A stretch of 64,000 nt of DNA from a virus: positions 1 to 64,000 of the IMG/VR virus record IMGVR_UViG_3300008952_002488; one strand, given 5' to 3'. The position numbers were made by a program, and so were the translations under genes. Positions 7,907-55,461 of the stretch are shown here, piece by piece (position 1 is the first letter of the stretch; every line of letters begins with the position of its first letter). The notes beneath the pieces were generated by a model that worked only from the letters and a program-made list of their open reading frames with translations, did not search any database and was not told the origin of the DNA.

Positions 7907-8572
7907 ATGAAAAACATGAAGCTTATTATGGAGTCATGGAGAACCTATGTTACAGAACAAGGTATGCTCGACGACCCAGGTTTAGCACCTTCCGGTGGAA
8001 AAGTCACAGGAAATCCCCAAATAGACCAAAAAATGTTTGATTATTTTAAGGAGTTTTTGCCTGGTGGTTCTCGCCACGGAGAAGATCCTGAACTTTGCGA
8101 ACTGGATATTGAGGGCACGAAACTTATGTGTCAAGATAACAAGGGTCTTGCAAGAAGCGTAATGCCTCAACTTAAAACAGCAGACGATCAAGATTTGGCA
8201 GAAGCGTTTGCCGACTATCTTGAGAGCCAAGGACACTCAGTATCAGAGACAACAGAACTTGCTTCGAACCTGAAAGCCACACAAAACCAATTAAAAGGAG
8301 CAAAGGTCAACGGCATGAACTCAGCCCTTGTGTCCACCGATGGAAAACATGATAAAATTCGAGCCCCAATTATTGTTAGCAGTGATAACTATGTTCTCGA
8401 CGGACACCACCGTTGGGCGTCTCAGGTAGTTTACGACTTTATGAATGGCACGCCAGGCGTTGAAGTTGCCGTCAGAAAGGTAAGTCTTCCCATCGATGAA
8501 CTGCTGGAGCTATCTAAGTATGATGGAGAGTTTTGCCAGACTAATGGGTGTGTTCCCCCCCAAGGGAGATAA
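7907..8572 (+). CDS. ParB-like domain protein with a tag-like N-terminus
   Basis: A 221-residue protein. The C-terminal half contains VSSDNYVLDGHHRWAS (about residues 163-178), the DGHHR core typical of ParB/sulfiredoxin-fold domains, some of which are nucleases or CTP-binding switches. The N-terminus MKNMKLIMESWRTYVTEQ resembles the capsid-targeting leaders of phage internal proteins (compare T4 MKTYQEFIAEA), with L-I-M-E and Y-V-T-E as possible cut sites. Two cysteine pairs are present. A ribosome site lies 6-8 bases upstream and a candidate late element further up. I infer a DNA- or nucleotide-acting protein that may be packaged; the enzymatic activity is unproven. Confidence 0.75.
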   Translation: MKNMKLIMESWRTYVTEQGMLDDPGLAPSGGKVTGNPQIDQKMFDYFKEFLPGGSRHGEDPELCELDIEGTKLMCQDNKGLARSVMPQLKTADDQDLAEAFADYLESQGHSVSETTELASNLKATQNQLKGAKVNGMNSALVSTDGKHDKIRAPIIVSSDNYVLDGHHRWASQVVYDFMNGTPGVEVAVRKVSLPIDELLELSKYDGEFCQTNGCVPPQGR

Positions 8573-8606
8573 ATGTAACAAACGGGGGAGAAAGCAAGAA
8601 AGTAAA

Positions 8607-8615
8607 CTATTTATT
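8607..8615 (+). promoter_or_regulatory. CTATTTATT candidate late-promoter element
   Basis: AA-CTATTTATT ending 28 bases before the ATG at 8644. It is followed by a palindromic CTCCTAGGAG that includes the ribosome site, so initiation may be affected by local pairing. Confidence 0.45.
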
Positions 8616-8643
8616 ATTAGTTCTCCTAGGAGGGGCTCACAAA

Positions 8644-9096
8644 ATGAAAATTAAAAAGTCTAATTTAGAAAAACTAGTTCGAGAAGCCATTTACGCAGAG
8701 GTGGGTCGAAAGGTCCTCGCTGAAGGTCGTGTTGATGAATTTCTTGGCGGACTTTTCGGCGGCGGCGACATCGACCTTGGAGAAAAGAGTGCCGCAGCGC
8801 AGGAGCTAATGTATTACAAACCAGAAAGCGGCGGCGTTGGAAAAAAGATCCAAGATGCGATTGATGCGGGGTTGGATGATTACGTGACAATTCAACAAGT
8901 TTGGAACAAATTGGGCGAAGCCGTAGTCAATGGTCATTTTTTGGACGGCAAGGACCCAATGGTCAAAAAGATTAAGAAAAGCTGGGCTAATAAACAAGAG
9001 GAGCCCCGCCGATCCATGTATGAGATGATCTTCGAAAAAGGCTCGTCACTCGACGTACAGAAAGCCATTGAAGCGCAAATTGGAAGGGCAAAATAA
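8644..9096 (+). CDS. Tagged small protein, long-tag subfamily (paralogue of 1246)
   Basis: I place the start at the ATG at 8644, preceded by AGGAGGGG. The 150-residue product has the extended leader MKIKKSNLEKLVREAIYAEV continuing to V-L-A-E before GRVDEFLGGLFGGG. V-L-A-E is a good L-x-E prohead-protease site and lines up with A-I-N-E in the paralogue at 1246. After the glycine-rich junction the two proteins are unrelated, so the leader plus linker was shuffled as a unit. The mature domain is a basic helical protein of unknown function. It is followed by another tagged gene one base later. Confidence 0.78.
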   Translation: MKIKKSNLEKLVREAIYAEVGRKVLAEGRVDEFLGGLFGGGDIDLGEKSAAAQELMYYKPESGGVGKKIQDAIDAGLDDYVTIQQVWNKLGEAVVNGHFLDGKDPMVKKIKKSWANKQEEPRRSMYEMIFEKGSSLDVQKAIEAQIGRAK

Positions 9097-9097
9097 A

Positions 9098-9421
9098 ATG
9101 AAAATAACAAAAACATACCTGAGAAAAGTTATTAAAGAAGAACTAAGCAATCTTAAAGAAGCGGAAGACCCTAAAGAATTGGTGGGACTTATGGTGAGTA
9201 AGTTGGCCCCTCTAAAGGGAAAAATTGAAGCTGCCTCAAAAACAGTAGACCTCAAACTAGCCCTCGTAAAGGCTTTGTTATCTCACCCAGAAACATTTGC
9301 AATGGACGAAGGCGAACTAGACAAAGCATTTGCAATGCTCAAGAGATCTGTCCAAAAAGGACAAGAAACTGCCAAACAGCAAGCAAAAGCCCCCGCCCCC
9401 GCAACAGGCCGGCCTGAATAA
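9098..9421 (+). CDS. Tagged small protein (MKITKTYLRKVIKE leader)
   Basis: A 107-residue protein; the start at 9098 follows the previous stop by one base. The tag ends V-I-K-E at residue 14, with a second possible site N-L-K-E at 18-21. A helical domain follows, with a repetitive hydrophobic pattern, and the end is a Gln/Ala/Pro-rich tail (KAPAPATGRPE). It belongs to the second cluster of tagged genes (7907-9421). Function unknown. Confidence 0.78.
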   Translation: MKITKTYLRKVIKEELSNLKEAEDPKELVGLMVSKLAPLKGKIEAASKTVDLKLALVKALLSHPETFAMDEGELDKAFAMLKRSVQKGQETAKQQAKAPAPATGRPE

Positions 9422-9464: not shown

Positions 9465-9647
9465 ATGCACGAAAAACTAGACAAATGGCTCGGTAAGTGG
9501 GCTTCACGAAAATTAATAGTATGGGGAACTTCCACCGCTTTCTTGGCGGCTGGTCATCTTACGAGCAGCGACTGGGTTGCTGTATCTCTCGCATACATTG
9601 GACTACAAGGAGCAGCCGACATTGCTGCTAAGTGGAAGCACGGCTGA
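9465..9647 (+). CDS. Small two-segment membrane protein, holin candidate
   Basis: A 60-residue protein with a charged N-terminal helix (MHEKLDKWLGKWASRK), a hydrophobic segment (LIVWGTSTAFLAAGHL), a short turn (TSSDW) and a second segment (VAVSLAYIGLQGAADIAA) ending in basic residues. Size and topology fit a small class II holin or a phage membrane protein. The next gene, which it overlaps by one base, has the topology of an inner-membrane spanin, supporting a lysis role. No lysis enzyme is recognisable in this window, so the call is tentative. Confidence 0.6.
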   Translation: MHEKLDKWLGKWASRKLIVWGTSTAFLAAGHLTSSDWVAVSLAYIGLQGAADIAAKWKHG

Positions 9648-9961
9648 TGAAATGGTTATGGTACAAACTGAAGTCAGGCTGGTGGAAGCTTGTACTGGGG
9701 ATCGTCGTCTTGGCGAGCCTGCTCATTTACTTTTATCGTCTGTTAAAACCCACAGACGACAAGATAGAGTATTTAGAAGCAATAAAAACAGAAGCAACAT
9801 TCGCCTTAAAGGAATCAGAGTTGCGTGGTAGACTGGAAAAAGATAAGATTGGAGCAGTCAAGAGCGTCTTTGAAAATCGTCTGCGGGACACCGAAAAAAT
9901 AGACGACAGAGAAGAGCGATTGAAGGCTTTGATCAGATTACATAAAGAACTAGATATCTAA
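9647..9961 (+). CDS. Single-pass membrane protein with coiled coil (i-spanin candidate)
   Basis: The start at 9647 is chosen because its ATG overlaps the previous TGA. The 104-residue product has a Trp-rich, basic N-terminus, one membrane segment (about 12-31, LVLGIVVLASLLIYFY) and a long charged helical tail with heptads. An N-in single pass with a periplasmic coiled coil is the layout of i-spanins such as lambda Rz. No lipoprotein o-spanin partner is embedded in it. It could also be an unrelated anchored coiled-coil protein. Confidence 0.6.
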   Translation: MKWLWYKLKSGWWKLVLGIVVLASLLIYFYRLLKPTDDKIEYLEAIKTEATFALKESELRGRLEKDKIGAVKSVFENRLRDTEKIDDREERLKALIRLHKELDI

Positions 9962-9973
9962 GGAGATAAAAAA

Positions 9974-11110
9974 ATGGTAGATATTCCTACACTTGACATC
10001 GAGGATTACGATCCCGACCTAAACGAAGAAGAGGAGGCTGTTGAGGACAAGGCCGGCGGCGCTCTTACTTATGCTATTGTAGGCGCTGGCCAAGGCGGCG
10101 GACGTATGGCTAAAGCGTTTTATGATATGGGTTATACCAAGACGGTTGCTGTAAATACAGCCCGTTCTGATTTAAATGGGCTTGATATACCTGACAATCA
10201 AAAATTCCTTGTTGACGAACACGGCGAGCAAGGTGCCGGCAAAGACCAAAAAAAGGCTCAAGCCGCAATCGAACGAAAGGAGCAAGAAGTATTCAATTTG
10301 TTCCGTGAAGTTTTCGGTAGCAACGTTGACCGTATCTTGATTTGCTTAGGTGTCTCCGGCGGCTCTGGCGGTGGAACAGTTAACACTCTTATTAAGGTTG
10401 CCAAGAAGTATTTCACTTATATTGGCGTAGAGGATGTTGATAAGCGTGTTGGTGTTGTGGCATCTCTGCCCACAGCAGGTGAGTCCGCATCCCCCACCGT
10501 TGCCAAGAATGCTCATGCTCGGATCACTGATCTTTGCGTGCAAGCAGAAAAAGGAAAGATTGCCCCTCTTATTATGGTGGATAACGAAAAGATTAAAAAG
10601 CTTTACCCCAAACTTACAGTGAAGAAGTTTTGGAAGACCATCAACAACACAGTTGCAGGTTTGTTCCATGTATTTAACGTCCTTGCCAATAAGGATTCAG
10701 AGTACACCACGTTTGATGCCACGGATTATGATAGCGTTATGCGCCAGTCTGGGTGTATGATTATGGGCGTGACAACTGTTAAAGATGTTGAGAATGAAAC
10801 CGCTGTCTCAACTGCGCTTAAAAAGAATCTTGAGAAAACACTTCTCGCCGAAGGTTTTGACCTGACTACGGCAACGGGCGCTGCTTGTATTGTGGTGGGT
10901 GGAGAAGTCATTTTTGAGGAGACTGCTGGACTGATGGACAACATTGAGTTCGGGTTTGACACTTTGGCTGCTCTAACAGGTGGAGCCATTATTCATCGTG
11001 GCATCTATGAAGATGATAAGCGTGATAAGCTGGTTGCCTATACTTTGGTTAGCGGTCTCCTGCGTCCTGCCAAACGTATCGAGGGGCTCAAAAAGTTCCT
11101 GAAGAAATAA
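9974..11110 (+). CDS. FtsZ/tubulin-like GTPase
   Basis: A 378-residue member of the tubulin/FtsZ superfamily. An acidic N-terminal extension (1-27) precedes the nucleotide-binding domain: GAGQGGGR at 37-44, the tubulin signature region GGSGGGT at 129-135, and VVASLPTAGE at 161-170. The segment around 245-258 (TTFDATDYDSVM, then GCMIMG) aligns with the FtsZ T7 loop and following helix. Hydrolysis requires that loop, so the protein could polymerise and turn over GTP. Phage tubulins such as PhuZ position DNA or the phage nucleus; this one is more FtsZ-like and sits directly upstream of the packaging genes. AAGGAG lies 9 bases before the ATG. A second divergent homologue is at 41174. Confidence 0.85.
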   Translation: MVDIPTLDIEDYDPDLNEEEEAVEDKAGGALTYAIVGAGQGGGRMAKAFYDMGYTKTVAVNTARSDLNGLDIPDNQKFLVDEHGEQGAGKDQKKAQAAIERKEQEVFNLFREVFGSNVDRILICLGVSGGSGGGTVNTLIKVAKKYFTYIGVEDVDKRVGVVASLPTAGESASPTVAKNAHARITDLCVQAEKGKIAPLIMVDNEKIKKLYPKLTVKKFWKTINNTVAGLFHVFNVLANKDSEYTTFDATDYDSVMRQSGCMIMGVTTVKDVENETAVSTALKKNLEKTLLAEGFDLTTATGAACIVVGGEVIFEETAGLMDNIEFGFDTLAALTGGAIIHRGIYEDDKRDKLVAYTLVSGLLRPAKRIEGLKKFLKK

Positions 11111-11111
11111 A

Positions 11112-11492
11112 ATGAAAAAAGTAGTTGCACTCATACTGCTCTTTTCGCTTAACGCCGCTGCGGCAGAGGTTACGAAGTTCGAGCCTCGCCCAGCGGCTGT
11201 TGAGCAAGAGGGCAACACCTATGTTGGAATTCTGTTGAGCGAAGAAGACTTTCGCAAAATACTGGAAAAGAAAATTGACACCAACGCCAAACTGGCAGAC
11301 TGCTCTGTGGATAAAAAGGTATGCACCCAAATGCAAGAGACGTACAAATTATCCATCACAAAACTAGAAGACCAACTCAAGAAAAACAACTCATGGTTTG
11401 ACAGAAATCGGGGAACCCTCGGTCTTCTCACGGGTTTGGTGATAGGAACTGGCGTTTCTATCGGCATTGTTCATGCTGTATATCAAAAGTGA
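11112..11492 (+). CDS. Exported protein with C-terminal membrane anchor
   Basis: A 126-residue protein with a clear Sec-type signal peptide (MKKVVALILLFSLNAAAA, cleavage likely near residue 18). A periplasmic charged helical region with two cysteines (about 61 and 68) follows. The C-terminal hydrophobic segment (LGLLTGLVIGTGVSIGIVHAV) would reinsert in the membrane. It begins one base after the tubulin-like gene and overlaps the next gene. The topology fits a lysis or envelope-interacting protein, but I do not recognise a family. Confidence 0.7.
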   Translation: MKKVVALILLFSLNAAAAEVTKFEPRPAAVEQEGNTYVGILLSEEDFRKILEKKIDTNAKLADCSVDKKVCTQMQETYKLSITKLEDQLKKNNSWFDRNRGTLGLLTGLVIGTGVSIGIVHAVYQK

Positions 11493-12492: not shown

Positions 12493-14073
12493 ATGAGCCT
12501 CAACAAAAAGGAAATGATGACAGAGATCGTGCGCTCCGGCAAGGATCCTGTCTATTTCTCTAATAAGTACGCAAAAATATCTCACCCGATGCATGGGCTT
12601 ATTCCCTTTGATATGTACAGGTTCCAAGAGGACGCCCTGAGAGATTTCAAGAAGCATCGGTTTAATATAATCCTAAAAGCAAGACAGTTGGGTATTTCTA
12701 CCACTGTTGCTGCTTATGTTTGTTGGCTTATGCTTTTCCACCGTGACAAAAATATATTGGTTGTTGCGACAAAATTAGGAACCGCAGCCAATTTGGTTAA
12801 AAAGGCAAAGGCGATATATAAAAATCTTCCTGCTTGGCTAAGAATTGCAACAATTGAAATTGATAATAGAAACTCTTTTGAGTTGTCTAATGGCTCTCAA
12901 GTAAAAGCCTCCTCTACCTCGGGCGATGCAGGTCGCTCGGAAGCTTTATCCCTTCTTGTCGTCGATGAGGCTGCGATTGTGGAAGGTCTTGATGAAATGT
13001 GGGCAGGGCTTTACCCCACTCTGTCAACGGGTGGGACCTGCATTGCTCTGAGTACGCCCTATGGCGTTGGCAACTGGTTTCACAAAAACTACATTGAGGC
13101 AGAAGAGGGTAAAAACGACTTTAATCCAATTAAGCTACCGTGGAACGTACATCCAGAACGAGACCAAACTTGGTTCGCTAAAGAAACCCGCAACATGTCG
13201 AAGAGAGAAATTGCCCAAGAGCTTGAGTGTAACTTTAACGCTTCAGGGGAGACAGTTGTTCATGGTGACGATCTGAGGAGAATATTAGACAGCGTATCTG
13301 AGCCAAAATATAAAACAGGGTTTGACAGAAATTATTGGATTTGGGAACCCCCAGAGCCAGGAAGAGAGTATCTGGCTATTGCCGATGTGGCTCGTGGCGA
13401 CGGGTCAGACTATAGCGTTTGTCAGGTTATTGATTTGCAGACGATGAACCAAGTTGCAGAATATCAAGGAAAAATAACTCCTGATATGTTTGCTCCTCTT
13501 TTGTCAAGTATGGCTACTGAATACAACGGTGCGTTATTGGTTATCGAAAACAACTCTTTGGGGATAGGCGTCCTCAGTCGCTTAGAAGAAATTGGTTATG
13601 AAAACCTTTATTACAGTATCCGATCAACGCACGAATATGTGGATCAAGCTACCGCTGAAGCAATTGGTGGTGTTGCGGGCTTTACCATGTCTATGAAGAC
13701 CCGCCCCTTGGTTATCTCTAAGTTTGAGGAATTCGTAAGAAACAAACTAATTACTATTAACTCAATGCGGTTAGCCAATGAGATAAAAACATTTATCTGG
13801 CACAATGGACGACCACAGGCAATGAGGGGTTATAATGATGATCTTGTTATAGCGACATGTATTGGGTGCTGGGTAAGAGATACGGCTTTAACAGTGAACA
13901 AAAGGGAAATAGAGTACAAAAAGGCAATGATCGGCGGAATATCAGTGAGCAGTAAGACTTTTAACACTAAAATAGAAGGAATGCAGGGGTATAAAAAACC
14001 TGTAAAATCAAAAAATACATTTCAAGGCAACGATGGCAAAAATTATGATTTGTCTTGGATAATTAAGGGATAA
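12493..14073 (+). CDS. Terminase large subunit (gp17-like)
   Basis: A 526-residue packaging motor and nuclease. The N-terminal ATPase has the variant Walker A ARQLGIST at 63-70 (compare SRQLGKTT in T4), Walker B LLVVDEAA near 154-161 and the coupling motif ALSTPYG. The C-terminal RNase H-like nuclease starts at ADVARGDGSDYS near residue 296, with a second acidic cluster at VIENNSLG. The motor docks on the portal encoded three bases downstream and cuts concatemers to fill the head. Length is close to T4 gp17 without its extended termini. Confident family call. Confidence 0.95.
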   Translation: MSLNKKEMMTEIVRSGKDPVYFSNKYAKISHPMHGLIPFDMYRFQEDALRDFKKHRFNIILKARQLGISTTVAAYVCWLMLFHRDKNILVVATKLGTAANLVKKAKAIYKNLPAWLRIATIEIDNRNSFELSNGSQVKASSTSGDAGRSEALSLLVVDEAAIVEGLDEMWAGLYPTLSTGGTCIALSTPYGVGNWFHKNYIEAEEGKNDFNPIKLPWNVHPERDQTWFAKETRNMSKREIAQELECNFNASGETVVHGDDLRRILDSVSEPKYKTGFDRNYWIWEPPEPGREYLAIADVARGDGSDYSVCQVIDLQTMNQVAEYQGKITPDMFAPLLSSMATEYNGALLVIENNSLGIGVLSRLEEIGYENLYYSIRSTHEYVDQATAEAIGGVAGFTMSMKTRPLVISKFEEFVRNKLITINSMRLANEIKTFIWHNGRPQAMRGYNDDLVIATCIGCWVRDTALTVNKREIEYKKAMIGGISVSSKTFNTKIEGMQGYKKPVKSKNTFQGNDGKNYDLSWIIKG

Positions 14074-39951: not shown

Positions 39952-41172
39952 TTGCTATTTCAGACTCTAGACGATAAAGCCGAGTGTGTCGGAATTTATT
40001 GCGATGGCAACCTTATTTTCGAAAGAGAAGAATTCCCAGACAACATTTCCCAAACATGGAGGTATTCGTCGTACCTTCGTGGTATTGATAATATAGAATA
40101 TGCAAATCTGTATACACAAGGAAAAAAGATACACGAGGTAATACCAGAATATTTAAGAGAAGACTGGGAGGATGTTGCAGGTCGGCTCTTGTCTTTCGAG
40201 AGATCTCTAAGGATAGCCAAAGTTGATCGATCCGATAATTGTATCTACGACCTTACTCCGAGTCGATTTTTGATTGAGTTTTGCGAAGTTAAAAATGAGA
40301 TCACAAAGTACGTTCTAAAGAATCATAAACGCCCGAAAAGGTATGATTACCTACTGAGGGTGTGTCAGATGTTAGAAGATATATCTAACCGCCGATTAAA
40401 TATCAATAGAAAGCATTTACAGGCACACTTACGCTCCAAAAAAACTAAATCCATTGTTAAGCGACTGTTGGATACTGCCCCCTATATAAAATACAATCAA
40501 TTTGGCACGAAAACGGGCAGGCTAACAACAAGGACAGACTCTTTCCCGATTCTTACCCTGAAGAAAAGTTTGAGGACAGCCATCGAGCCCACAAATGATT
40601 ATTTTGTGGAGCTAGATTTTAATGGCGCAGAGGTTCGTGTACTCATGGGCATCTTGGGCATGGAGCAGCCCCCAGAAGATGTACACCAATTTCATAAAGA
40701 TGCTGTTTTTAAGGGATCGACAACCCGTGAGGCAGTTAAGACCGCTTTCTTCGCTTGGCTGTATGGATCTAAGTCTGCTGCGTCTAGCTCTGAAGGGGAA
40801 GCTCTTAGAAAGTTCTATGATAAAGAAAAGATATTAAGACAGTGCTGGGATGGAAAGAACGTCCGCACCCCCTTTGGAAAAGAGATTGGTGATGTAGATG
40901 AACATCATGCCCTGAATTATATCGTACAATCAGCAGCGGCTGACCTAACTCTTCTACAAGCTATGAAGATAGACTACCTTCTTCGAACCCAGGCAAGTAA
41001 GTCAACGTTGTCTTGCATTATTCATGATGCTATAGTTTTAGATTTTGCTAAAGAAGACGAACATTTGTTGCCAAAGATAAAAAGTCTAATGAGTTCTACC
41101 AAATTTGGCGAGTTCGGGATAAATATAAGTAGTGGAAATAATTTAGGAAATCTTAGGGAGTTTTCGGTTTAA
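39952..41172 (+). CDS. Minimal family A DNA polymerase, variant motif C
   Basis: Starts at the TTG at 39952, as no ATG is near. About 406 residues: only the polymerase part, lacking 3'-5' and 5'-3' exonuclease domains. Motif A is ELDFNGAEVR (Asp222 equals E. coli Asp705). Motif B, R-E-A-V-K-T-A-F-F-A-W-L-Y-G, has Arg259, Lys263, Phe267 and Tyr271 aligned with Arg754, Lys758, Phe762 and Tyr766. Motif C is HDA (358-360) rather than HDE, so the catalytic Asp remains but the Glu is lost. It probably performs short gap-filling, since a DnaE-type replicase is encoded at 52051. It is followed one base later by a tubulin-like gene. Confidence 0.85.
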   Translation: MLFQTLDDKAECVGIYCDGNLIFEREEFPDNISQTWRYSSYLRGIDNIEYANLYTQGKKIHEVIPEYLREDWEDVAGRLLSFERSLRIAKVDRSDNCIYDLTPSRFLIEFCEVKNEITKYVLKNHKRPKRYDYLLRVCQMLEDISNRRLNINRKHLQAHLRSKKTKSIVKRLLDTAPYIKYNQFGTKTGRLTTRTDSFPILTLKKSLRTAIEPTNDYFVELDFNGAEVRVLMGILGMEQPPEDVHQFHKDAVFKGSTTREAVKTAFFAWLYGSKSAASSSEGEALRKFYDKEKILRQCWDGKNVRTPFGKEIGDVDEHHALNYIVQSAAADLTLLQAMKIDYLLRTQASKSTLSCIIHDAIVLDFAKEDEHLLPKIKSLMSSTKFGEFGINISSGNNLGNLREFSV

Positions 41173-41173
41173 G

Positions 41174-42028
41174 ATGGAAAAGGTAATAGGGCTTGGAAGA
41201 GTCGGGTGCGGTATCGCAGAGGAATTCACACAGTATCCGGAATACAAAATCTATAAGATAGGTGCAAACTTAGACCGACGGGGCAATCTTGTCCTTGACG
41301 AACAGCCCGACATCCAGGCTTATGAGAATAATTTTGACCTACTTGATGCTGAGGCATACCTAACGAATATTAAACCAGATGATGAGGTTCTTTTTGTTGT
41401 CGGCGGAGGCGAGCCCGTTTCTGGTATCAGTTTATCTCTTTTGGAAATAATAAAAGACGCAAAGATAACAATTTTGTACGTTTGTCCTGATCGGTCAGTT
41501 AGCTCGTTGATACAGAAAAGAGATGATAAGATTGTTTTTAACATCTTGCAAGAGTACAGCCGGAGCGGACTCTTTGAGAAGATGCTTCTTATAGACAGGT
41601 CTAGAGTTGAGGAGCTAGTTGGCGATGTGGCTGTTAGTGAGTATGAAAAAAGCGTATATCATTTCATAGCTTATCTGGTGGCAATGACAAATTACTTTGA
41701 TCACATCGACGCTGTTTTAACGAATAGGTTAGAGCCAAACAAGATCTCAAGAATTGGGACTTTTGGAGTCGCTTCGCTAGACAAGGAGGAAATCAAATAT
41801 ATATTTCCAGTCGAAGAAGAAGAGTATGCTCATTATTATTACGGCATACCGGAAAAAGATCTACAACAAGATAGCGAACTCATGCGGAAAATAAAAAGAC
41901 AAAACAAAGCGTTTACAAAAGAAAATGTCGATGGATATTTTTCAGTTTTCCCGACAACCTTAGATGCCGCCATAGTCCTCTGCATTTTCTATTCAAAAAG
42001 AATACAGTCGTTACCTCTGGAAGGGTGA
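41174..42028 (+). CDS. Second, divergent FtsZ/tubulin-like protein
   Basis: A 284-residue protein with GLGRVGCG at 6-13 and VVGGGEPVSGISLSLLEI at about 75-92, a degenerate form of the tubulin/FtsZ phosphate-binding loops. The expected GGGTG(S/T)G is replaced by GGGEPVSG. The rest has alternating strands and helices like the N-terminal domain, with a shortened C-terminal domain. It differs greatly from the canonical homologue at 9974. It may be a regulator or a non-hydrolysing partner; GTP binding itself is uncertain. It is coupled to the polymerase gene. Confidence 0.65.
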   Translation: MEKVIGLGRVGCGIAEEFTQYPEYKIYKIGANLDRRGNLVLDEQPDIQAYENNFDLLDAEAYLTNIKPDDEVLFVVGGGEPVSGISLSLLEIIKDAKITILYVCPDRSVSSLIQKRDDKIVFNILQEYSRSGLFEKMLLIDRSRVEELVGDVAVSEYEKSVYHFIAYLVAMTNYFDHIDAVLTNRLEPNKISRIGTFGVASLDKEEIKYIFPVEEEEYAHYYYGIPEKDLQQDSELMRKIKRQNKAFTKENVDGYFSVFPTTLDAAIVLCIFYSKRIQSLPLEG

Positions 42029-42082: not shown

Positions 42083-42520
42083 ATGACTAAGGCCCAACCT
42101 AGGGGCATCTTGTTAGCTTCTTTTTTAACAACTGACTCCGAGGAACAAATACTAGAAGAAGTTCAGTACATTGCTGATAATTTTCAGCTTACCAACAAGT
42201 ATATATTCCTGCTTAGAAACACGGAAGATCCTAATAAAAAGGTGTTGACATATAACGCTGTTATGCAGAAGGGTAAATTTTTAAACCAGCGTTTGTTTAC
42301 TATGAGGATTCACAGAAAGAAGTCCACGAACACGCTTTACACAATAAATGCTTTAAACCTAGCAGTTGCCAAGGATCACGACGGACAGACGGGTAAGCAT
42401 CTAAAGCTTGATTGGGAAAAATATTCCAACAGCATTCTTTTGGTGGTAGCAAAGGAACTGAATGTGCATCCGGTCGAAGTGTTGAAAATATTTAAAATAG
42501 AAGAACCCCCCCAAGAATAA
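42083..42520 (+). CDS. Small conserved protein of unknown function
   Basis: A 145-residue alpha/beta protein: strand GILLASFLT, helix EEQILEEVQYIADNFQL, and a strand pair (KYIFLLRN, KVLTYNAVM), then ILLVVAKELNVHPVEVLKIF near the end. It lies in its own small unit, preceded by GATATTTATATTAAG, which resembles the late element. No cysteines or membrane segments. I do not recognise the family. Confidence 0.65.
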   Translation: MTKAQPRGILLASFLTTDSEEQILEEVQYIADNFQLTNKYIFLLRNTEDPNKKVLTYNAVMQKGKFLNQRLFTMRIHRKKSTNTLYTINALNLAVAKDHDGQTGKHLKLDWEKYSNSILLVVAKELNVHPVEVLKIFKIEEPPQE

Positions 42521-42643: not shown

Positions 42644-43060
42644 ATGAGCAATTTAGTACGATACAACACACCTAGTCTTCTTGGACGCAGCATCTTTGAT
42701 GAACTGTTCGGAGACTTCCAATCACTAGCGAGAAAATCAACCTCGGGTTATCCCGTAGCTGACATCTTCTCCAACGAAGACGGGAGCACAACTCTTGAGT
42801 TCGCTCTCGCAGGTTTCAGCAGAGAGGATCTTAGCATTGAGATCCAACCAGAAAAGAGCAGTCTCACTGTGCGTGCGGAAGCCAACACGGAAGGCGACAG
42901 CAATCGACGCATCGCCCGCCGAAGTTTTCAGAAGACCTTTGTGAACTATGACAGCAACCTTGACCTGACGGCAAGCACTGCTGACTTTCACAACGGACTT
43001 CTGTCAGTTACTATCCCACGGAAAGCGGAGACGCAACCCGTGATTATTGATATCAACTAA
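42644..43060 (+). CDS. hsp20: Small heat-shock protein Hsp20
   Basis: A 138-residue alpha-crystallin-type holdase. The alpha-crystallin domain runs from about residue 35 to 125: VADIFSNEDGSTTLEFALAG, then LSIEIQPEKSSLTVRAEA, and the signature ADFHNGLLSVTIPRK (about 110-124). A C-terminal P-V-I-I-D-I-N stands in for the usual I-x-I anchor. Many cyanophages and marine T4-like phages carry hsp20, thought to protect phage or host proteins during infection. It has its own promoter, a structured leader, AAGGAGG and a terminator, so it is expressed as a monocistronic unit. Confidence 0.92.
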   Translation: MSNLVRYNTPSLLGRSIFDELFGDFQSLARKSTSGYPVADIFSNEDGSTTLEFALAGFSREDLSIEIQPEKSSLTVRAEANTEGDSNRRIARRSFQKTFVNYDSNLDLTASTADFHNGLLSVTIPRKAETQPVIIDIN

Positions 43061-43204: not shown

Positions 43205-43993
43205 ATGGGTATTGATCTTGATAAAATGCGGCAAAAGCACGCCGCTCTAACGAAGTCTGGCGACGGTCAGGGTGACATGTTCTGGAAGCCAGAAGACGGC
43301 TCGCAGGTTATCCGCCTTGTTTGTCCAACAGACGGCGATCCCTTCAGGGAGTTTTACTTCCATTACGGATTGGGTGCTGAGGGTAAAGCCAGCGTTCTTA
43401 GTCCTCGCACATTTGGCGAGACCGACCCAATCTCGGAGTTTGGTACGAGGCTCTGGAAGAATGGCACGGACGAAGACAAGCAAGCAGCCAAACGCTTTTG
43501 GCCCAAGATGCGAGTCTTTGCTCCCGTCGTCGTTCGTGGGGAAGAGGATAAGGGCGTTCGCTGGTGGGGCTTTTCTAAGACCACTTATGAGAACTTGTTG
43601 AATGTCGTTCTTGATCCTGAGTACGGTGATATCACCGACACCGAAAAGGGAACGGACCTGCGTATTGACTACGGCAAGAAGTCTGGTCAAGCCTTCCCGA
43701 CGACGGACGTGCGCCCAATGCGTAAGAGTTCGCCTCTTGCCAAGACGGATGAGGAGATTGAAAAACTCCTTGGCTCAGTGCCTGATACCACTACTGCCTT
43801 TGAGCGTGTGTCTTATGATGAGTGTGAGCGGATTCTGCACGAAACCCTAGGGGCAGATGCAGCCTCAACTACCGCTGATTCGGAGACAACTCGTTATTCC
43901 GAAAAGACTACTGCCAAGGCTACCACCAAGACGGATAGTAACCTTGAGGGTGTCAGCGATATTGAGTCAGCGTTCGACGATCTATTGGCGTAG
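43205..43993 (+). CDS. Single-stranded DNA-binding protein (gp32-like)
   Basis: A 262-residue protein with a basic N-terminus (DKMRQKHAAL). The N-terminal and middle regions resemble T4-like gp32: WKPEDGSQVIRLVCPTDGDPF, then FYFHYGLG. The acidic C-terminus (SDIESAFDDLLA) is the protein-interaction tail typical of SSBs. It lacks the obvious zinc ligands of T4 gp32. It would coat single-stranded DNA at the fork and promote UvsX loading; uvsX is the next gene. The ribosome site AAGGAG is well spaced. Confidence 0.78.
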   Translation: MGIDLDKMRQKHAALTKSGDGQGDMFWKPEDGSQVIRLVCPTDGDPFREFYFHYGLGAEGKASVLSPRTFGETDPISEFGTRLWKNGTDEDKQAAKRFWPKMRVFAPVVVRGEEDKGVRWWGFSKTTYENLLNVVLDPEYGDITDTEKGTDLRIDYGKKSGQAFPTTDVRPMRKSSPLAKTDEEIEKLLGSVPDTTTAFERVSYDECERILHETLGADAASTTADSETTRYSEKTTAKATTKTDSNLEGVSDIESAFDDLLA

Positions 43994-50048: not shown

Positions 50049-50747
50049 ATGAAAAAGATTTTGAGCGAATGGAAAAAGTTTTTAAATGAATCCGGGTTTA
50101 ACCGAATCAAGAATATCCTTCAGGGCAACGTAGCCTCTGTGGGTACAGTTGGTTTTATGACAGGTGAAAACCCTATGGCGCAAAAGATGTCATCCAAAGA
50201 AAACCGGATGCTCAACAAAGAGTTGATGGCTTGGATGCGTGAGCGTGGCTACGGACCCATTCGCATTAGAGGTCGCTTTGGAAACATGGAGAGATCTATG
50301 ATGATTCCCAACATCACCCGAGAAGATATGGTGGAGGCTGGCAAATACTTCAACCAAGAATCGGTTATTTGGGGAGAGAAGACCGACGAGAATGCATTTT
50401 TATTTGAGTACATCGAAGGCGATGTCACCGTCCAGCGCCGTGATGTTGTCTTGTTTGATGATGAAGTCCAGGCCCGTGAGGATTTTTATTCCCAAGAAAG
50501 ACAGTCAGCCGGACGCAAATTTTATATCCCCTTCTTTGACGATCAGTATGAGATGGAAGAAGGACATGAATATGATTACGACTTGCCAAGTCTAAGCGAA
50601 ACCCAACGAGAACAGAACAAAGAACTTATTAAAGAAATCAACGATAGGATTAGTTACACTTTGGACGCTAGTCGAGCCCCTAAATCTCGCTGGCATCATC
50701 GCCAAGTCCTTCGGCTTAAACTTCAGGAACTAAAAAATAAGTTATGA
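50049..50747 (+). CDS. Tag-bearing protein with a DUF3293-like domain
   Basis: A 232-residue protein. The leader MKKILSEWKKFLNES ends F-L-N-E at residue 14, closely resembling the T4 internal-protein leader MKTYQEFIAEA. The core WMRERGYGPIRIRGRFGN, then MMIPNITREDMVEAG and YFNQESVIWG, resembles the DUF3293 pattern found in phage and bacterial proteins of unknown function. The C-terminus is a charged helix. It overlaps the next tagged gene by ATGA. I infer a capsid-packaged protein; the domain is of unknown activity. Confidence 0.72.
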   Translation: MKKILSEWKKFLNESGFNRIKNILQGNVASVGTVGFMTGENPMAQKMSSKENRMLNKELMAWMRERGYGPIRIRGRFGNMERSMMIPNITREDMVEAGKYFNQESVIWGEKTDENAFLFEYIEGDVTVQRRDVVLFDDEVQAREDFYSQERQSAGRKFYIPFFDDQYEMEEGHEYDYDLPSLSETQREQNKELIKEINDRISYTLDASRAPKSRWHHRQVLRLKLQELKNKL

Positions 50748-52050: not shown

Positions 52051-55000
52051 ATGACTAACCGAATTGAAAGTAAGATCCCCTTTGTGGGGTTACATGCTCA
52101 CTCAGGCTTATCTCCTTTCGATGGGCTAGGTATGCCCGGCGAGCACATGGACTTCGCCTACGAGAACGGGATGAACGCTCATGCTCTAACAGACCATGGG
52201 CACATGAATGGCTTGTCGTTTCAGGTAGAGCATCTCAAAAAGATGCGAGCCGACGGCAAAGATTTTAAAGCTTTGTACGGGTGTGAGTCTTATTTTATTA
52301 AGTCACACAAGAAGTGGCGTAAAATGTATGAGGAGCACCGCTCCAAAGTTAAGCGCCAAAAGAAGGAAGAGTACGGGCTTGTTATCGAAGATGAGGACCG
52401 GCAAAAGAAATTCAACCCTTTGAATATTCGCCGCCATCTCGTAATGATTGCCCAGAACCAGACAGGGCTAAACAACTTATTCAAGCTAGTGTCGGATAGT
52501 TATCAGCCTGAAAACTTCTATCGGTATCCCCGTATGGACTTTGAGATGCTGGACAAATACAATGAGGGTCTGATTATCAGCAGCGCCTGCATGTCGGGTC
52601 CTCTGTTTGGAGACTTCTGGAAGCATCGAGACCCTGACACGGGGGCCTACGACGCCGATGTAGTCTTGGCATCAATGAGAGACACTATTGCCCGCTTTAA
52701 GGAGATCTTCGGGGATAGATTTTACGGAGAAGTCCAGTGGAATGATATCATTGAGCAACATCAAGGTAACGCCCTCATTATTCAAGCCTGCGTGGAAATG
52801 GGCGTAGAGGTTATCAGCACAGCCGACAGCCACTACCCCCGACCAGAACTTTGGAAAGACCGAGAGATGTACCGCCGCATCGGCGGACAGTGGTGGGGTG
52901 ATGATGATGGGCTTCCCGAATCAGTAGAGGAAGTTGGCTACGAACTCTACCCAAAGAACGGTGACCAGATGATGGAAGCCTATAAAAAATATTCAGCTAA
53001 ATATAATATTGAATACGATGATGCCTTCATCCGTGATACAATTGAGCGGACACACCACATCGCCTTTGGCCGATGTGAGGACTTTGTTCCCAACAGCGAG
53101 GTTCGCCTCCCAGAGTTTGTTGTACCCGAAGGCAAGACAGCCATTCAGGCTCTGACCTCCGACGCTCTTGCGGGAATGAAGAAAAAGAATATCACAGACC
53201 CCGAGTATGTGGACCGTCTGAAGTACGAACTAAACATCATCAAGGAGCGAGGCTTCGCCCAATACTTCCTGACGATGAAAGCCATCTCGGATAAAGCCCA
53301 GGAGGAAATGCTGGTCGGACTCGGACGAGGTTCAGCCGCTGGCTCACTCCTGTCTTATGTCCTAGACATTACCCAGGTGGACCCAATCAAATATCAATTA
53401 CAGTTTGAGAGGTTCCTGACCAAGGGCGGCACGGGCTACCCCGACATTGACTTTGATGTTGAGGAGCCAATGGTTCTCAAGGAACAACTAGCAGAGGAGT
53501 GGGGCAAGACAACAGTGGTTCCCATCAGCAACTTCAACACGCTCCAACTCCGCTCACTCATCAAAGACATCGGCAAGTTTTATAATATCCCGTTCACCGA
53601 AGTGAACAAGGTGACTGGCGTAATGATGAGCGAAGCCACACCCCTAGCCAAGAAAGCGCACGGCCAAATCGCTGGCGTCTACACACCAACATTTGACGAG
53701 GTAAAAGAATACAGTGAAACCTTACAAGAGTTTTTTAGAAAGTACCCGGAGGTGGCTACTCATGTCGATAACCTCTTTGGCAATATGCGGAGTATTTCTC
53801 GGCACGCTGGTGGGGTGGTTGTTGCTGAAGACCTAGATAAACACATGCCGCTCATCAACTCCGGCGGTGTCATCCAAACACCGTGGAGCGAAGGTCAGAA
53901 CGTTAGACACCTTGAGCCCCTCGGCTTTATTAAGTTTGACCTGCTCGGCTTGTCAACTCTCCGTATGATTTCGGGAGCAATCCGCCACATCCTCAAACGC
54001 CATCAAGGTATCGAGGAGCCAACCTTCGAGCAGGTGAGAGATTATTATAATACTAATCTCCACCCAGACACGATTGACTTTGATAATCAGGAAGTCTGGC
54101 GTGAGGTATTCCACAAAGGCAAGTGGGCTGGCATCTTCCAGATGACTAACGGTGGAGCACAGCGGTTCTGCCAAGAAGCACAACCAGAATCCCTTTTGGA
54201 TTTTGCTGCGGTCACGGCTATTTTCCGCCCCGGTCCACTTAGCGCCAAGGCTCACAGCCTGTATGTTGCGAACAAGTCTAACCCTAGCCAAGTACACTAC
54301 GAGCACCCAATCATCAAAGAAGTTCTCGGAGATACATACGGGCTTCTGGTCTTCCAAGAGCAGTTGGCTATGCTCGCTCACAAGTTGGGTGATGACCTAT
54401 CGCTGGACGAGGGCAACCTGCTCCGCAAAGTCCTGACGAAAAAGGGAACAGGAAAAGATAATATCAAGACCAAACTTTATAATAAGTTTGTGAAGGGCTG
54501 CGGCAAACACGGACTCACCGAAGATGTAGCCAAGAACTTGTGGTCTAAGATGGAATACTTTTCAGGCTACGGCTTCAACTTATCACACGCTGTATCCTAC
54601 GGAGCCGTATCCTTTCAGTGTGCTTGGCTCAGTTATTATTATCCGGTTGAGTGGATGGCTGCGTTCCTAGACAAGGAACCAGAAGACAAGAAGGCAGGAG
54701 CAATCAACACAGCCAAGTCCTTTGGGTTTGAGATTGTCCCGCCAAGCGTCAACAAGTCAGGGCGAGTCTGGGAGATTGCCGAGGACGGCAAGACTTTGAT
54801 TCAGCCGCTCGCAGGCATCAAGGGTCTGGGCGACGCAGCGATTGACCAGATTGTAGCCAACCGACCCTTCAATAGTATTGAGGAGTTTATCTTCAACGAG
54901 AACATCACATACTCCAAACTCAACAAGAAGGCTTTGGATGTGCTGGTCAGGAGCAAAGCCCTTGACGAGTTGATGGACGACAGGTTTACAGGTCTTCGCC

Positions 55001-55461
55001 ACTTCTGGTCTGCCGTCGCTGTGGACAGGCCACGCAAGGAAAAGAACCTGCTGGAAAATATTGATGTCTACGCACCCGAGGGAGACTTCTCCGAAGAAGA
55101 GAAGTTGGAGCACTTCGCATCGCTCACAGGCATCTTCCCTATCCACGAGATCATGCCACAGGAAATCCAAGACAACCTGATGACCCGTGGCTGTCCGCCC
55201 ATCAGCGAGTACGACCCCGACCTCCAACTGGTCTGGTTCATTCCGAGGGAAGTGAAAATAAAGAAGACAAAGAACGGTAAGGAATACTGGGTCATCCACA
55301 CCACCGACAGCAACGCCTTTGATGCTCGCATCCGCTGCTGGGGGGTGAGAGATGACGACAAGATTTCCCTTAACAAAGTATACGTTGCTAACTTAGAATA
55401 TAACGAGAAGTGGGGTTTCAGCACCCGCTCGCTTAGAAGGACATTTAGGAGGCTCACTTGA
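52051..55461 (+). CDS. DNA polymerase III alpha subunit (DnaE-type, family C)
   Basis: A 1136-residue family C replicase. The N-terminal PHP domain has LHAHSGLSPFDGL at 14-26 and ALTDHGHMNG at 45-54. The palm has GLGRGSAAGSLLSYVLDIT and YPDIDFDVEEP with acidic residues 465, 467 and 469. The fingers region contains GYGFNLSHAVSYG, and the C-terminal part has a helix-hairpin-helix (IKGLGDAAIDQIV, then NRPFNSIEEF). T4-like phages normally use the family B polymerase gp43; none is seen here. This is probably the main replicase, with helicase, SSB and FEN nuclease nearby. No clamp is recognised in the window. Confidence 0.95.
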   Translation: MTNRIESKIPFVGLHAHSGLSPFDGLGMPGEHMDFAYENGMNAHALTDHGHMNGLSFQVEHLKKMRADGKDFKALYGCESYFIKSHKKWRKMYEEHRSKVKRQKKEEYGLVIEDEDRQKKFNPLNIRRHLVMIAQNQTGLNNLFKLVSDSYQPENFYRYPRMDFEMLDKYNEGLIISSACMSGPLFGDFWKHRDPDTGAYDADVVLASMRDTIARFKEIFGDRFYGEVQWNDIIEQHQGNALIIQACVEMGVEVISTADSHYPRPELWKDREMYRRIGGQWWGDDDGLPESVEEVGYELYPKNGDQMMEAYKKYSAKYNIEYDDAFIRDTIERTHHIAFGRCEDFVPNSEVRLPEFVVPEGKTAIQALTSDALAGMKKKNITDPEYVDRLKYELNIIKERGFAQYFLTMKAISDKAQEEMLVGLGRGSAAGSLLSYVLDITQVDPIKYQLQFERFLTKGGTGYPDIDFDVEEPMVLKEQLAEEWGKTTVVPISNFNTLQLRSLIKDIGKFYNIPFTEVNKVTGVMMSEATPLAKKAHGQIAGVYTPTFDEVKEYSETLQEFFRKYPEVATHVDNLFGNMRSISRHAGGVVVAEDLDKHMPLINSGGVIQTPWSEGQNVRHLEPLGFIKFDLLGLSTLRMISGAIRHILKRHQGIEEPTFEQVRDYYNTNLHPDTIDFDNQEVWREVFHKGKWAGIFQMTNGGAQRFCQEAQPESLLDFAAVTAIFRPGPLSAKAHSLYVANKSNPSQVHYEHPIIKEVLGDTYGLLVFQEQLAMLAHKLGDDLSLDEGNLLRKVLTKKGTGKDNIKTKLYNKFVKGCGKHGLTEDVAKNLWSKMEYFSGYGFNLSHAVSYGAVSFQCAWLSYYYPVEWMAAFLDKEPEDKKAGAINTAKSFGFEIVPPSVNKSGRVWEIAEDGKTLIQPLAGIKGLGDAAIDQIVANRPFNSIEEFIFNENITYSKLNKKALDVLVRSKALDELMDDRFTGLRHFWSAVAVDRPRKEKNLLENIDVYAPEGDFSEEEKLEHFASLTGIFPIHEIMPQEIQDNLMTRGCPPISEYDPDLQLVWFIPREVKIKKTKNGKEYWVIHTTDSNAFDARIRCWGVRDDDKISLNKVYVANLEYNEKWGFSTRSLRRTFRRLT

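Follow-up and report, generated by a model that had tools for sequence, protein, structure and literature searches.

A predicted TubZ-like GTPase and a putative pseudo-tubulin beside DNA polymerase in one T4-like phage genome

Phage tubulins are found in few lineages, mostly jumbo phages, where they form GTP-driven positioning filaments. The locus described here raises the question of whether one phage can encode two different tubulin/FtsZ-like proteins and, if so, whether the second one serves the first. The window, i.e., the whole stretch of DNA analyzed, comprises positions 1 to 64,000 (64,000 nucleotides) of the IMG/VR record IMGVR_UViG_3300008952_002488. A sequence-only reading had pointed to two such products, here called protein A (9974-11110) and protein B (41174-42028), and had suggested a filament with a modulator acting near the packaging genes, taking jumbo phages as the known setting. 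Open reading frames are present at both places, and both products belong with the tubulin/FtsZ-like proteins, A by Pfam and PDB matches and B by its AF2-predicted fold.

The record is 171,926 bases long, and on present evidence this uncultured phage is not a jumbo phage, so that part of the earlier setting does not apply. The virion genes include a T4-like portal, major capsid, and terminase, and the replication set includes a family-A polymerase, a gp32-like single-stranded DNA-binding protein (SSB), a RecA-like recombinase, an exonuclease, DnaB, a class II ribonucleotide reductase, and Pol III alpha. The closest terminase relatives in annotated phages are those of Microcystis phage Mel-JY01 (45%) and Flavobacterium phage immuto (44%). 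Conservation is strongly mosaic between the window and the related record G005 (L168-L170), with the replication genes from RecA onward and the 4332 protein being 85-95% identical, the virion genes mostly 45-77%, and B and the polymerase about 54%. Two further genes in the window are worth recording. A DUF3293 protein (50049-50747) has a sub-threshold match to S-adenosylmethionine lyase (E 2.8e-4) and is a candidate counter-defence gene, and a phage DNA polymerase III alpha with PHP, NTPase, and finger domains (52051-55461) is encoded beside the family-A polymerase in a T4-like virion background.

Protein A matches the Pfam domains Tubulin (PF00091, E 1.8e-9, 38.6 bits, curated cut-off 33) and TubZ-like_C (PF22453, E 1.6e-7, 31.9 bits, cut-off 26), and solved FtsZ, CetZ, and TubZ chains in the PDB also match it by sequence. 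The T-loop names (T1-T7) and the roles of these loops follow FtsZ and tubulin. The gene and its motifs are:

9974..11110, + strand: protein A, a predicted TubZ-like tubulin/FtsZ GTPase of 378 aa with a conserved acidic N-terminal extension and a basic C-terminal tail (PF00091, PF22453, PDB TubZ/CetZ/FtsZ by sequence, tail charges)
10082..10105, + strand: T1 phosphate-loop motif GAGQGGGR (invariant in 19/19 rows)
10232..10246, + strand: T3 loop GAGKD (invariant in 19/19 rows)
10349..10378, + strand: T4 tubulin signature GVSGGSGGGT (nine positions invariant, the last T or S, 19 rows)
10706..10732, + strand: T7 loop TTFDATDYD with three invariant Asp, aligning with TYDPSDL of TubZ-Bt

The claim that the 9974 product keeps its GTP-binding motifs and a T7-like loop is therefore well founded. 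Across the 19 aligned relatives, T1 GAGQGGGR and T3 QGAGKDQ are invariant, as are Asn204 (T6), Asn224/225 (H7), and Asp248/251/253 of T7, while T4 reads GVSGGSGGG(T/S). The C-terminal tail carries a net charge of +3 to +7 in the same 19 rows. At the other end, the acidic N-terminal extension (9974-10063; MVDIPTLDIEDYDPDLNEE) is nearly invariant, has a net charge of -10 to -13 over 30 residues (19 rows), and resembles a short linear binding peptide, perhaps comparable to the C-terminal peptide of FtsZ. The AF2 model of A is poor (pLDDT 47) because the relatives of A are 87-95% identical, yet in VIA the N-terminal part of A still aligns with CetZ and TubZ (Z 16.1, 15.3, 15.2, and 14.4). The fold assignment thus draws on sequence together with partial structural matches, and, judged by its sequence, A is a canonical TubZ-like tubulin/FtsZ GTPase. 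By homology, A would polymerize with GTP and hydrolyze it via the T7 Asp residues, and, following the precedents of PhuZ and TubZ, its filament may move or position phage DNA or capsids. No relative of A was found in the annotated phage collection at E 0.01, and phage G alone appeared at E 0.1. A search of bacterial genomes gave 231 matches to the A pattern and 0 relatives by tblastn, a weak search since its two peptide patterns are narrow.

The genes around A are likewise constant:

9632..9961, + strand: membrane coiled-coil-like protein upstream of A with an N-terminal TM-like segment (in 71/71 A loci reaching that far; hydropathy)
11112..11492, + strand: protein downstream of A with a signal-peptide-like segment and a C-terminal TM-like segment (in 80/80 A loci, which were collected by exact 8-residue patterns, a scan that misses more divergent A proteins; hydropathy)
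12493..14073, + strand: terminase large subunit (gp17-like), downstream of A (PF03237 1.2e-8, phrog_2 5.5e-52; in 78/78 A loci reaching it)

Through the products of the two genes that always flank it, A could be tethered to a membrane. No TubR-like Pfam match was found among the tested genes adjoining A. A divergent canonical tubulin in G051 (L276 3714-4850, motif GGGGGTGSS) is 28% identical to A (E 4e-17); its gene is upstream of that for a related terminase by ~4 kb and outside the pair of membrane-protein genes, in which the hydropathy cut-off calls no TM segments. Several small proteins encoded upstream of the terminase (8548-9421, L276 2607-3701, and L276 5172-5708) have similar N-termini resembling MKITKxxLxxxIKEE, which may be a common signal for targeting or for the prohead core.

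Protein A is under extreme purifying selection and protein B is diverging fast. With fourfold sites restricted to codons whose first two bases are identical, A has an amino-acid identity of 0.91 at a fourfold-site identity of 0.38, compared with 0.78 at 0.34 for the terminase and 0.50 at 0.29 for B. The possibility that A is conserved merely because it belongs to a recently exchanged block was rejected, as both neighbors diverge and the fourfold sites of A are near saturation.

Protein B has no superfamily match by sequence in Pfam, PHROGs, the PDB (single sequence and profile), or the annotated phage collection, and the Pfam Tubulin domain matches neither B nor six of its relatives. In IMG/VR, a single-sequence query retrieved 7 B loci and an alignment query 37. 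The features of B are:

41174..42028, + strand: protein B, a putative 284-aa pseudo-tubulin with a predicted complete tubulin/FtsZ fold and a degenerate GTPase site (AF2, Foldseek, VIA)
41405..41425, + strand: degenerate T4 loop GGEPVSG (consensus GG(D/E)P(I/V)SG, 29 rows)
41702..41752, + strand: T7/H8 region, lacking a conserved acidic residue and, in the model, helix H8 (alignment and AF2 model)
41234..41260, + strand: conserved YPEYKIYKI, H1-S2 turn and S2 (low entropy)
41549..41569, + strand: conserved QEYSRSG, end of H5 (low entropy)

The AF2 model of B, built from a 29-row alignment, has a pLDDT of 93.8 and a pTM of 0.92. Foldseek against the PDB has FtsZ as its top match (E 1e-12, with a TM of 0.68 over the query) and also lists TubZ. 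VIA-align of residues 1-284 returns CetZ, TubZ, and FtsZ (top Z 25.2, 24.6, and 23.8), with CetZ at Z 25.2 (3.2 A, 262 residues), TubZ at Z 23.8 (280 residues), and Aquifex FtsZ at Z 23.5; a fold absent from the Foldseek or VIA lists is not thereby excluded. Among viral structure models, B comes closest to a 452-aa phage 'FtsZ' (E 9.7e-12). Moreover, the A and B alignments match each other in hhalign at E 3.7e-5, with T1, T4, and H6-H7 lined up. Of the A-bearing records searched, 20/20 are recognized by the first B profile through the H6-H7 part of A (E per record 2e-5 to 4e-4), and an A query weakly recovers B in three B-only records (E 2e-5 to 1e-3). These matches give independent sequence support for the homology of A and B. 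The model shows B as a complete two-domain tubulin/FtsZ fold with an H7 core helix, and a fold outside the superfamily, which would have undone the sequence-only reading, was looked for and not found. Structure prediction, proposed for both proteins, hence succeeded for B and gave a poor model for A.

The degenerate loop GGGEPVSG noted in the 41174 product is real and follows the consensus of its relatives, in which GG(D/E)P(I/V)SG replaces GGGTGxG and the T4 Thr position is Pro in about 90% of the 29 rows. The same 29 rows have no conserved Gly in T3, no Asn in T6, mostly Ser, His, or Tyr in H7 at the position of the Asn pair of A, and no conserved acidic column between 177 and 193, so that the T7 acids are gone. 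In the model, helix H8 is missing after T7, and H9 is apparently missing too. We read B as a pseudo-GTPase that probably does not bind GTP; since T1 GxGxxG and the GG of T4 are retained, GTP binding is still possible on sequence. T2, T3, T6, and T7 are variable, and YPEYKIYKI and QEYSRSG are among the most conserved surface segments. The predicted secondary structure would place these two segments at strand ends opposite the nucleotide loops.

The gene for B belongs to a different module from that of A:

39952..41172, + strand: family-A DNA polymerase gene directly upstream of B (PF00476 1.7e-15; in 37/37 B loci)
42083..42520, + strand: small protein downstream of B, whose immuto homologue directly follows the polymerase gene (blastp 32%, 1e-16)
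43205..43993, + strand: gp32-like ssDNA-binding protein (PF08804 2.8e-8)

The suggestion that the pair lies near the packaging genes fails for B, which directly follows the family-A polymerase gene in all 37 IMG/VR loci (window record not counted). The aligned end of the polymerase is -14 to +1 nt from the start of B in 36 of these loci and -65 in L089. Distant B genes in G047, G052, G053, and G054 (E 1e-90 to 4e-57) also come just after a polymerase gene, directly in G047 and with one intervening ORF in G054. The order family-A polymerase, B, SSB, RecA places B in the replication module, where it may serve the replication complex in a structural or docking role that does not depend on nucleotide. 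An optional gene for HSP20 (42644-43060) is found between B and SSB in 9/37 B loci; it is 88-100% identical where present, with neighbors mostly at 50-70%, and looks recently exchanged.

This arrangement bears on whether B could be purely a polymerase accessory, e.g., a factor for processivity or assembly, of tubulin descent but unconnected with filaments. The constant adjacency fits such a role, as does the similar divergence of the polymerase and B (identity 0.54 and 0.50). However, the tubulin shape is kept to Z 25, which suggests that a tubulin-like interface still matters, and a related polymerase module works without B. In Flavobacterium phage immuto, the polymerase gene is followed in turn by that for a 151-aa protein, a further ORF, and the genes for SSB, recombinase (RecA), exonuclease, and helicase. 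The 151-aa protein is homologous to the window 42083 product (32%, 1e-16), and B is therefore missing exactly from its slot in immuto. A search of 33 records for the polymerase gave 8 matches. All 5 strong ones (E below 1e-70) come with B, whereas the 3 weak ones, in immuto, G057, and (at a contig end) G055, lack it, so B is not required by the polymerase in every phage. A purely accessory role is thus doubtful. We prefer, tentatively and with a little less than even confidence, to regard A and B as two independently kept tubulin-superfamily proteins in different gene modules, with B serving the replication module as a structural or docking protein that works without GTP.

The distribution of the two genes was surveyed across related phages, as had been proposed. 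Among 20 records selected by A, B is carried by all 10 that have at least 33 kb downstream, 31.0-33.7 kb from A, and by 0/10 of those with less than 29 kb downstream. Three records chosen by B (G027, G030, and G031) also have A, which is partial in G027. On the other hand, a canonical tubulin (PF00091) was not found in the B-bearing records G026 (114.8 kb), G047 (190 kb), G053 (85 kb), and G054 (157 kb), which may be fragments; the search matched its positive controls G000, G005, and G016, plus 13/14 control genomes. The B-bearing G052 is cut too near the terminase for A to be scored, and a tubulin match in LR756508 was discarded as weak (E 0.04, internal stop). The survey therefore shows a pair kept together in one clade and B present by itself elsewhere.

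In G026, which is collinear with the window (terminase 55%), two membrane-type ORFs with a 4-base overlap separate the 4332-like gene from the 11489-like one, and no tubulin lies between the two ORFs. By position and topology, these ORFs are judged to be the counterparts of 9632 and 11112; profiles of both membrane proteins that flank A gave no match in G026 or G051.

These data allow the proposed filament with a modulator to be weighed, in which B, as a non-hydrolyzing partner dedicated to A, co-assembles into A filaments or caps them, like one tubulin chain for the other. The clade that keeps both genes 31-34 kb apart is consistent with it, B lacks the acidic T7 residues by which hydrolysis would be triggered in a neighboring subunit, and at H6-H7 the profile of B shows a weak but specific resemblance to A. 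However, B occurs without A in G026, where the A slot is empty, and in G047, G053, and G054, so the pairing is not obligate. Moreover, A is 88-95% conserved, whereas B falls to about 50% in the same clade, and the two genes lie in different modules. In a 16-row tree, A groups with plasmid TubZ, phage G gp138, and the G051 tubulin, while B forms a single clade (99/99) with long branches next to PhuZ, a placement that is unreliable. The slow divergence of A, the fast divergence of B, and the lack of an A-B grouping count against an obligate filament and modulator, and we regard this explanation as unlikely. Since B occurs without a canonical tubulin in related phages, modulation of A is possible within the clade that has both proteins and cannot be the general role of B. 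A recent duplication of A as the origin of B was also considered and is unsupported, as B is a separate long-branched clade.

The B-only phages could instead point to the host. ARC3 contains a degenerate FtsZ-like domain. This protein is a chloroplast negative regulator of FtsZ assembly and also works in E. coli (PMC5471200). By analogy, B might be a host-takeover mimic of FtsZ that poisons or captures the host division ring, as ARC3 does by inhibiting assembly. The nearest solved folds of B are FtsZ, CetZ, and TubZ, no phage tubulin would be needed, and the fast divergence of B fits a host-facing protein. We nevertheless consider such a mimic improbable, as B is strictly linked to the polymerase gene and not to early host-takeover genes.

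The preferred reading, with B as a docking factor of the replication module, would accommodate parts of these alternatives. B may bind a tubulin-type filament at its exposed end without triggering hydrolysis, the partner being A in this clade and host FtsZ or another filament elsewhere, and may thereby anchor replication or cap the filament. In this scheme B would contact the polymerase, A, or FtsZ, although gene adjacency does not equal physical interaction. A bolder form, to which we assign a low probability, would make the nucleotide-independent B a standing component of the replication module (polymerase-B-SSB) across a broad uncultured group of T4-like phages, docking the replication complex to a tubulin-family filament that was originally host FtsZ, with A added later in one clade.

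Several points extend beyond this genome. A canonical tubulin is predicted here in T4-like phages of ordinary size, whereas earlier ones came mostly from jumbo phages. B would represent a separate family, invisible by sequence, with a full tubulin fold, no GTPase site, and a genetic tie to DNA polymerase. A replication role for B would mean that the tubulin fold has been put to use beyond filament motors; as an FtsZ decoy or a filament cap, B could be a compact natural inhibitor. In the open-licence PMC literature, neither two tubulin-superfamily proteins in one phage nor a pseudo-tubulin linked to a polymerase was found described, and novelty is not fully secured. Two distinct FtsZ/tubulin representatives are described among jumbo phages, not two in one phage, in PMC7824862, and the words tubulin and FtsZ are absent from passages of the Far-T4 paper (PMC4360716). 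A described relative of B was likewise not found in this literature, including passages of PMC7824862, PMC13282480, PMC4360716, PMC5322520, and PMC5471200.

Among known systems, the plasmid partition GTPase TubZ (type III, Bacillus plasmids) is close to A in having the PF22453 C-domain and a basic C-tail, the T7 YDPSD of TubZ-Bt resembles the FDxTD motif of A, and TubZ plasmid homologues match A by tblastn (E 4e-8). However, TubZ and A are only 24-29% identical, A is flanked by membrane-protein genes with no TubR-like gene recognized adjacent, and its gene sits in a T4-like virion module. The putative FtsZ-like gp138 of Bacillus phage G is the only annotated phage protein found to resemble A (E 0.1 in the whole collection, 3e-12 in a small comparison), although the identity is about 21% and the genome context is unrelated. 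PhuZ of the phiKZ-like jumbo phages is a phage-encoded tubulin that positions DNA and capsids, but blastp at E 1 links it to neither A nor B, and the present phage, at 172 kb, is T4-like. The phiKZ nuclear-shell protein (chimallin) gp54 gave no match in G000, G005, G016, or G047 in a weak, single-protein search with the phiKZ self-match as control. CetZ and FtsZ are the best structural neighbors of B (Z 25.2 for CetZ and 23.5 for Aquifex FtsZ), at about 12-16% identity, whereas B is without the GTPase motifs, H8, and apparently H9. Finally, ARC3 may be a functional analogue of B as an inhibitor of FtsZ assembly, although ARC3 is a multi-domain eukaryotic protein.
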